This document shows, piece after piece, positions 25,401 to 27,916 of a stretch of DNA of 64,000 nt. Both the position numbers and the translations under genes were made by a program. Origin of the DNA: Halorubrum aethiopicum (lineage in GTDB: Archaea; Halobacteriota; Halobacteria; Halobacteriales; Haloferacaceae); NCBI RefSeq assembly GCF_001542905.1, contig NZ_LOAJ01000001.1, positions 2,852,001 to 2,916,000 on the forward strand, in the 5' to 3' direction. Every line of letters begins with the position of its first letter. The stretch's first letter is position 1. Below the pieces are notes generated by a model, which worked only from the letters and a program-made list of their open reading frames with translations, was not told the origin of the DNA and did no database searches.

Positions 25401-25423
25401 GGTCGCGCGTCGCAGTGGCGGAC

Positions 25424-26512
25424 ATGAGCGACGACCACGAGGCGGGCGTGGACGACTCCGAGCCGGACGTGGACGACGCGGACGGCCACGAGACGGACGC
25501 GGGCGACCACGACGGCCACCCCCACCGCGAGGAGTTCGACGACGACCCGGTCGGCCACGCGCGCGTCGGCGCGGGGATGACCGTCGGGGAGCTCCTCGAG
25601 ACGTACGGCGAGGCCGGGATCGGCGCGGCCGACGTCCACGAGGCGGGCGACGTGCTCGCCGAGATGTTCGGGAACGACGACTGTACCGTCTTCCTCTCGC
25701 TCGCGGGCGCGATGGTGCCCGCGGGGATGCGCGGGATCGTCTCGGAGCTGATCTACGACGGCTACGTGGACGCGCTGGTGACGACGGGCGCGAACCTCAC
25801 CCACGACGCGATCGAGGCGATCGGCGGGAAACACCACCACGGCCGCACGCACGACCCCGAGAAGACGCTCCGCGAGCACGACGAGGGGCTCCGCGAGGAG
25901 GGCGTCGACCGCATCTACAACGTCTATCTGCCCCAGGAACACTTCGCCGAGTTCGAGGGCCACCTCCGCGAGGAGGTGTTCCCGGCGCTCGAGGGCGAGG
26001 GAGCCGTGTCGATCGCGGACCTCTGTGCCGAACTCGGACGGGCGAACGCCGAGGTGAACGAGCGCGAGGGGATCGCCGAGGAGGCGGGGGTCGCCGCCGC
26101 GGCCTACCAGGCGGACGTGCCCGTCTACTGTCCGGCGGTTCAAGACTCCGTGTTGGGCCTTCAGGCGTGGATGTACGCCCAGACGGCCGACTTCACGCTC
26201 GACGCGCTGGCGGACATGACCGAACTGACCGATCTCGCGTTCGACGCCGACGACGCGGGCTGCCTGCTCGTCGGCGGCGGCGTCCCGAAGAACTTCACCC
26301 TCCAGACGATGCTCGTCACGCCGCGGGCGTACGACTACGCGGTCCAGGTCACGATGGACCCCGAGGCGACCGGGGGACTCTCGGGGGCGACCCTCGAGGA
26401 GGCGCGCTCGTGGGGGAAACTCGAGACGGACGCGCGCAACGCCTCCGTCTACGGCGACGCGACGGTGATGCTCCCGCTGCTCGTCGCCGCCGCGAGAGAA
26501 CGGGTGGAGTAG
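25424..26512 (+). CDS. dys: Deoxyhypusine synthase
   Basis: A 362-residue enzyme that transfers the aminobutyl group of spermidine (or an agmatine-derived group) to a Lys of aIF5A, the first step of hypusine formation. The catalytic Lys lies in ARSWGKLETDARNASVYGDA, the counterpart of human K329 in SWGKI. NAD-binding and active-site sequences include SLAGAMVPAGMRGIV, TTGANLTHD and LLVGGGVPKNF. The N-terminal 40 residues are very acidic and His/Asp-rich. I prefer the ATG at 25424 over a GTG nine bases upstream, because of the TATA position. Confidence 0.93.
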   Translation: MSDDHEAGVDDSEPDVDDADGHETDAGDHDGHPHREEFDDDPVGHARVGAGMTVGELLETYGEAGIGAADVHEAGDVLAEMFGNDDCTVFLSLAGAMVPAGMRGIVSELIYDGYVDALVTTGANLTHDAIEAIGGKHHHGRTHDPEKTLREHDEGLREEGVDRIYNVYLPQEHFAEFEGHLREEVFPALEGEGAVSIADLCAELGRANAEVNEREGIAEEAGVAAAAYQADVPVYCPAVQDSVLGLQAWMYAQTADFTLDALADMTELTDLAFDADDAGCLLVGGGVPKNFTLQTMLVTPRAYDYAVQVTMDPEATGGLSGATLEEARSWGKLETDARNASVYGDATVMLPLLVAAARERVE

Positions 26513-26545: not shown

Positions 26546-26830
26546 ACAAGTCAATTTACTGTGGCGCGTGCCTGCGAGGCCGCCTCGCGGCCGAGCAGCG
26601 CCGCGCGAGGGAGTCAGTCGCCGGAGCGAAGCGGAGGCCGACTGACGAGGCTGGGGAGGCGTGAGGTGCGGTCGCGGCGCGGGGTGGGACTCAAAGGGGC
26701 AGCCGCCGGGACGGCGTAGGCGACGCAAGCACCGTAGGAACGAGCACAGCGAGTGACGAGGAGCGCAGCGAGCGTACGCCGTCCCGGCGGCTGGGGCTTT
26801 GGAGACGGTCACCGATCTGTTCTCGACTGC
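26546..26830. repeat. Structured non-coding element between convergent genes
   Basis: About 285 bases with no supportable reading frame. It holds at least three inverted repeats: GCGAGG/CCTCGC (26574-26588), GTCAGTCG/CGACTGAC (26613-26646) and a perfect 18-bp pair at 26701-26718 and 26775-26792. Its left end has an AT-rich patch, CAATTTACT. Dispersed motifs such as GGGACTCAAAGGGGCAGCC and CTGGGGCTTTGGAGAC resemble sequence I remember recurring in Halorubrum genomes, but only one copy lies in this window. Possible roles are a bidirectional terminator, a dispersed repeat or a small RNA. Confidence 0.6.
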
Positions 26831-26881: not shown

Positions 26882-27916
26882 CTATGCCCGCGAGTCCAGA
26901 TCCATCGCCTCGGCGAGCAGCGCGTGCGACTCCAGGGCGTCATCGTGGTCCGGAACCGTGTGCTGGATCATGACCTCGTCGACGCCGACGCGGTCTGCCA
27001 ACTGCTCGAGGAGGCCCGCGATCGTCTCCGGGCCCCCCGAGATCGACCGCGGCCACTCGTCGGGATCGAGCGTCGCGGGCGTCGGCTCCGGCGCGCCGCC
27101 GAGCTCGTCGACCGCCTCCTCGACGGTCGGGGTCTCGTCGCCGAGCTCGCCGCGTCGCATCCGTCGGAACGTCGCCTCCGCGGGGGCGCGCCGGCGGGCC
27201 GCCGCCTCGTCCGTCTCGGCCGCGACCGCGTTGACCGCGACCATGCCCCGCGGCTCGTCGAGGCCGCCGGGTCCGGCCTCGGTGTCGAACGACTCGCGGT
27301 ACTCGGCGAACGCGCGCTCGGCGAACCCCGGCCGGATGAACCCCGCGAAACAGTAGCGGAGCCCCAACTCCCCGGCGATCGCGCCGCTCGACGGGCTCGA
27401 CCCCAGCACCCATGGGACGGCCGGACCCTCCACCGATCCCGGCACCGAGAGGCTGGAATAAGGATGGTCGGCGGGGTAGGCGTCGCGGAGGTGGTTCACG
27501 ACCGCGGTGATCCGCTCGCGGTGGTCCTCGTCGGGGTTCTCGACGCCGCGGTCGGTGCCGAGCGCGCGGTCGGCCGCTGGCGACCCGTTGGCGCGGCCCA
27601 TTCCGAGGTCGACGCGGCCGGGTGCCAGCCCGTCGAGGACGCCGAACGACTCGGCCACCTTGAACGGCGAGTAGTGGTTGAGCAGCACGGCTCCGCTCCC
27701 GATCCGGATCGACTCGGTCGCGCCCGCGAGGCGGCCGAGCAGCACCTCCGGGGTGGTGCCCGCGAGCCGGTCGCCCATCCCGTGGTGTTCGGCGACCCAG
27801 AACCGCGAGTAGCCGAGTCGCTCCGCCCGCTCCGCGGCCTCGACGGTGTTGGCGTAGGCGTCCGCGGCGGTCCCGCCGCGCGGGACCGGCGAGAGGTCGA
27901 CGATGGAGAGGTCCAT
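26882..27916 (-). CDS. Luciferase-like (LLM class) flavin-dependent oxidoreductase
   Basis: A 344-residue TIM-barrel enzyme of the bacterial luciferase superfamily. The family opening is ERAERLGYSRFWVAEHHGM, with RIGSGAVLLNHYSPFKVAESFGVLDGLAPGRVDLGMGRANG in the middle, which matches the MsnO8/YwcH-type alkane-monooxygenase-like subgroup. It would use reduced FMN or F420 as cofactor; sequence alone does not decide which. TATA-like CCGTTAACGG (near 27942) lies 26 bases upstream of the ATG. The gene converges on deoxyhypusine synthase. Confidence 0.87.
   Translation of the reverse strand: MDLSIVDLSPVPRGGTAADAYANTVEAAERAERLGYSRFWVAEHHGMGDRLAGTTPEVLLGRLAGATESIRIGSGAVLLNHYSPFKVAESFGVLDGLAPGRVDLGMGRANGSPAADRALGTDRGVENPDEDHRERITAVVNHLRDAYPADHPYSSLSVPGSVEGPAVPWVLGSSPSSGAIAGELGLRYCFAGFIRPGFAERAFAEYRESFDTEAGPGGLDEPRGMVAVNAVAAETDEAAARRRAPAEATFRRMRRGELGDETPTVEEAVDELGGAPEPTPATLDPDEWPRSISGGPETIAGLLEQLADRVGVDEVMIQHTVPDHDDALESHALLAEAMDLDSRA

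Follow-up and report, generated by a model that had tools for sequence, protein, structure and literature searches.

The bacterial intergenic repeats ERIC/IRU, BOX, bcr1 and similar elements are structured sequences of 100-300 nt, dispersed in tens to hundreds of copies. REP/BIME elements are dispersed palindromic intergenic repeats accompanied by a RAYT (Y1) transposase, and PATE and other MITEs, described from Haloquadratum, are non-coding and dispersed in haloarchaea. The element analysed here, from Halorubrum aethiopicum, is like ERIC/IRU, BOX and bcr1 in size, structure and intergenic dispersal and, for some of them, in having modular tandem parts. It differs from them in being archaeal and order-wide, with invariant internal segments and a strand-specific RNA constraint, and we claim no sequence relation. 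With REP/BIME it shares the dispersed palindromic intergenic character, but it is a multi-helix element of ~240 nt and Y1 is absent from three high-copy genomes. Like PATE and other haloarchaeal MITEs it is non-coding, haloarchaeal and dispersed; by description it is set apart from them by the lack of a consistent TnpA/TnpB link, by RNA covariation and by chromosome bias. A halite metatranscriptome contains conserved intergenic sRNAs of Halobacteria, to which no function is assigned (PMC7002113). By description these sRNAs are, like the element, intergenic and conserved among Halobacteria.

We propose that the locus is probably a member of a family of non-coding RNA elements dispersed in haloarchaeal genomes. 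Judged from sequence, the best reading is a multicopy structured RNA element that behaves like a dispersed structured repeat; readings as a terminator or as a DNA repeat are weaker. The original prediction, which had considered a terminator, a mobile element, a small RNA or a promoter, is partly supported.

The window copy and its fold

The window is a 64,000-nucleotide stretch of H. aethiopicum (contig NZ_LOAJ01000001.1, positions 2,852,001-2,916,000, forward strand), and all coordinates count from its first letter. The element is flanked by the convergent genes for deoxyhypusine synthase (25415-26512, + strand) and a luciferase-like monooxygenase (26882-27916, - strand), and the region between the two holds no protein-coding frame with support. 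Folding of the stretch first singled out, 26546-26830, is predicted at -153.1 kcal/mol, against a mean of -133.0 for shuffled sequences (z = -4.19; none of 200 shuffles equalled it). Together with the gene ends and the inverted repeats, this confirms the observation of a structured non-coding stretch between convergent genes. A covariance model built from 28 H. aethiopicum copies (R1) has its sole strong match in the window at the conserved core (Table 1), so that the outer ends given earlier take in unique flank. A perfect 18-bp pair with a 56-base loop had also been noted; the loop length holds, and the pair is 19 bp long (26700-26718 / 26775-26793), lying inside the long inverted pair that forms P4. 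The repeated words GAGCACAGCGAG / GAGCGCAGCGAG are located at 26742 and 26761.

Table 1. Features of the window copy, in window coordinates.
Feature	Position	Strand	Basis
AT-rich CAATTTACT, decayed, where relatives have a TATA-like box	26552..26560	+	Ortholog comparison
Element core (model R1, 241 positions)	26561..26802	+	cmsearch 155.5 bits, full length 1-241
P1 helix, 5' strand, GCGCGTGCC	26564..26572	+	RNAalifold and R1 alignment
Hairpin P2 with tandem G-A loop, CTGC-GA-GGCCGC..GCGGCC-GA-GCAG	26572..26598	+	Alignments; covaries in other copies
Hairpin P3, TCAGTCG..CGACTGA	26613..26646	+	Sequence and copy alignments
Nearly invariant segment CGAGGCTGGGGAGGCGTGAGG with 3' strand of P1	26646..26666	+	28 aligned copies
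Nearly invariant segment GGGGTGGGACTCAAAGGGGC, running into P4	26681..26700	+	Copy alignments
Long bulged arm P4, arms 26692-26721 / 26772-26801	26692..26801	+	Conserved across Halobacteriales
3' tail AGACGGTCACCGATC	26803..26817	+	In relatives, tail and TATA-like box often tandemly repeated

The overall fold is a small three-way junction (P1, P2 and P3) followed by the long bulged arm P4. P1 pairs GCGCGCC with GGCGTG and encloses the hairpins P2 and P3, of which P3 is variable, the R1 model aligning that of the window copy poorly. The nearly invariant strand GCGAGGCTGGGGAGGCGTGAGG comes after this part, and P4 begins with GGGTGGGACTCAAAGGGGC and ends with GGGGCTTTGG; GGGTGGGACTCAAAGGGGC and GAGGCTGGGGAGGCGTGAGG are among the invariant segments. 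A second model covering only the P4 arm (R2) matches the window at 26682-26809 with 111.9 bits. In most of the 28 aligned copies GA lies opposite GA at four internal loops; these conserved loops interrupt the helices and have the arrangement of sheared G-A pairs in tandem. The shortest form, found in other genera, is P4 alone, with GACGYAAGSACCGCAG opposite GAGGASCGCAGCGAG.

Two variants of this architecture were observed. Two P4 units may stand head to head, ~25 bp apart, as a near-symmetric palindrome (loci L178, L195, L211, L235, L256 and L260; genomes G075 and G080). Nested in copies L035, L047, L092, L099 and L102 are short inserts of two hairpins, such as CGCCGGCG..CGCCGGC followed by GCGAGAGCTTCGCTCTCGC, which suggests that another repeat, smaller than the element, inserts into its copies.

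Copies in H. aethiopicum and across Halobacteriales

A DNA search of the H. aethiopicum genome returned dozens of copies, the stronger ones 73-87% identical, and R1 finds at least 130 at E<=1e-3 (150 candidates scored). The original prediction had proposed a dispersed family in Halorubrum and had named a single copy as an outcome against it; the copy number here bears the proposal out, and all sampled genomes of the genus match strongly. All 130 R1 matches sit on the chromosome (contig C1); by proportion, the other contigs, 280 kb in all, would be expected to carry ~11. The copies are intergenic: of 100 examined, not one overlaps a gene predicted by a simple codon-bias script.

One of these 100 copies has no downstream gene, and the remaining 99 were classified by flanking genes: 46 are convergent, 15 co-directional sense, 22 co-directional antisense and 16 divergent. 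Convergent pairs make up 11 of the 64 gene pairs in the window overall, an enrichment that would suit two-way termination of transcription, or 3'-end processing, at convergent genes, as would the strong hairpins and the T-rich stretches after some copies. However, a same-strand gene lies upstream of 61 of the 99 copies and is absent for 38, and because of these 38 the two-way terminator suggested earlier is weakened. Co-directional copies moreover occur in both orientations, with similar figures in other genomes, and termination has no need for a ~240-nt fold with order-wide invariant internal segments. We consider such a role distinctly unlikely. Clustering of the neighbours across copies gave no convincing recurrent gene; the largest cluster comprises regulator-like proteins from seven loci, which stand at no fixed distance and seem to reflect general paralogy.

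R1 matches 217 of 293 genomes and 66 of 87 genera of Halobacteriales. With R2, matches are found in 44 of 53 Halobacteriales genomes sampled and in none of 242 elsewhere in the phylum, a split taken from the kinship order of the match listing. Carriers include Halorubrum, Halobaculum, Haloarcula, Haladaptatus, Natrinema, Halovenus and Halorussus. Genomes differ in copy number, from a single copy to at least 150, and in some no copy is seen; the element is therefore not essential. In another genome of the same genus, 69 of 70 matches lie on the main replicon, and searches of plasmids and phages gave four weak matches and none, respectively. A pattern match on a viral contig (L169) looks like chance, with no element sequence around it. 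One exact 19-base core match was seen on a Bacteroidales metagenome-bin contig (L185, DCIY01000010.1), which R1 does not match at E<=1e-6; it is probably chance or contamination.

Across the whole window Rfam (release 15) gave no match at gathering score, and a search with copy L031 gave three weak matches, all far under threshold. The texts of the open-access papers searched contained no description of the element, and the family is apparently undescribed so far. A fold conserved across an archaeal order, at more than 100 copies per genome, thus lacks an Rfam entry or a description in that literature. The element also matters for annotating intergenic regions and for mapping RNA-seq reads in many genomes of haloarchaea. 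If transcribed, it could rank among the largest families of non-coding RNA in these archaea, and would offer a ready system for the spread and upkeep of structured RNA repeats in archaea with no obvious transposase or reverse transcriptase.

Compensatory changes and strand constraint

Stems without compensatory changes had been another outcome named against the original prediction. Among the 28 H. aethiopicum copies, double compensatory changes occur in 33 of 60 pairs. A set of 47 sequences, the majority of them from other genera, has 421 double-changed paired cells versus 117 in shuffled controls, and P4 across the order gives 318 versus 104. The compensatory changes exceed the controls, as in a structured non-coding RNA. 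Since base pairs in the helices change together, it is the RNA shape, not a protein, that appears to be kept by evolution. The pattern also holds in place: in nine pairs of position-orthologous copies from two sister species, one pair containing the window copy, double changes keep pairing in 75 cases and break it in 3; for single changes the figures are 20 and 22. Three copies beside the same gene pair in another lineage, one of them in Natrinema mahii, have stems that differ yet pair. Near-identical tracts are shared by distant copies, a sequence pattern that suggests gene conversion, and for this reason the compensatory changes in place need not all reflect independent selection.

If DNA or the other strand were constrained, G-U and A-C mismatches would be expected to be about equally common. 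The observed ratios of G-U to A-C are 41:5, 152:41 and 97:14 in three alignments (GU-dominant pairs left out), 27:2 on covarying pairs only in H. aethiopicum (p=1.6e-6) and, more weakly, 37:20 on the unfitted order-wide P4 alignment (p=0.03), with the alignments and structures behind these counts made by programs that favour G-U. Because G-U mismatches outnumber A-C, the + strand RNA emerges as the constrained molecule. Covariation and this excess together favour the RNA reading.

The strand asymmetry of the mismatches also bears on a DNA-level chromosome site for organisation, segregation or recombination, whose palindrome would be read by a DNA-binding protein. Such a site would account for the location of almost all copies on the main chromosome and for the near-symmetric head-to-head pairs of some genera. 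It is nonetheless very improbable, in that most copies stand alone and lack symmetry and copy number is very different between species, in addition to the asymmetry itself.

Spread, edges and tails

Reverse transcriptase (PF00078) was found in none of eight genomes, which argues against a retroelement or SINE-like family. Y1 transposase (PF01797) is absent from G000, G004 and G026, each with about 99-130 or more copies, and ten Y1 matches occur in G052, which has no R1 match; this pattern does not fit REP/BIME elements mobilised by RAYT. TnpB (PF07282) has no match in G026 despite its 99 copies, and in G004, with 129 copies, there are four TnpB. Reverse transcriptase, Y1 and TnpB are each absent from at least one high-copy genome, and therefore none of them explains the family. 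An omega-RNA guide scaffold of an IS605-type TnpB element that has lost its protein gene would likewise be structured, dispersed and followed by unique flank, but G026 contradicts it and no TnpB cluster was found among the genes next to copies; we give this explanation almost no credence.

The original suggestion of a mobile non-autonomous element keeps some force. In a MITE or REP/BIME type of DNA element the palindromes would serve a transposase and the RNA structure would be a by-product of DNA hairpins. Consistent with this are the dispersed intergenic copies enriched between convergent genes, the spread in copy number from 1 to more than 150 between genomes, the near-identical stretches in distant copies and the GCGGTG and CACCGC carried by the element ends. 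The inverted ends are imperfect. Close species differ at one site at least, where a relative lacks the copy; the boundary there is not clean, and no clean target-site duplication was found in 400 kb of a close relative. Against it stand this missing duplication, the distribution of Y1 (the transposase tested for), the few plasmid and absent phage matches with a strong main-chromosome bias, and the strand-specific excess of G-U. We regard a mobile DNA element as unlikely, though it deserves more weight than the other alternatives.

For the preferred reading, a multicopy structured RNA, we infer that transcription would start at a promoter of the element itself or at one nearby, and that a host protein would bind the RNA by recognising its invariant purine-rich segments and G-A loops. 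New copies would arise by some copying process and be partially homogenised by gene conversion. A more far-reaching version is put forward tentatively: the many chromosomal copies in each genome would make up a non-coding RNA system found throughout the order, with the folded RNA of each copy maintained by selection and acting with a host protein, and would be a family of genes instead of mobile relics.

A promoter at the AT-rich left edge, proposed earlier, finds support in relatives and is decayed in the window copy. Where the latter has CAATTTACT, the orthologous copy L080 has TATTTATAAATCGATCTGCCGTGG, and the window's own locus in relatives carries TTTATAAA. In other Halorubrum-type genomes a TATA-like motif lies within 32 nt of GGTGG in 40 of 58 copies, 33 of these 40 with a spacing of 15-17 nt before it, compared with 3.5% of random windows. 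The box is largely lost in H. aethiopicum (2 of 100 copies) and not evident in most of the distant genera read. It may serve as a promoter or belong to the unit that is copied.

Tail and TATA-like box are tandemly repeated two to five times in L087, L090, L091, L092 and L102. In many H. aethiopicum copies (L009-L048, L109-L168) a TCARTACAG-type sequence replaces the TATA-like box of the 5' edge, and in several tails GTACAG stands in for the TTATAAG of other Halorubrum. A separate repeat, CTGGAGGGAAAAAGCCGAC..GATGCTCAC, lies directly upstream of several H. aethiopicum copies (L031, L114, L119, L139 and similar).
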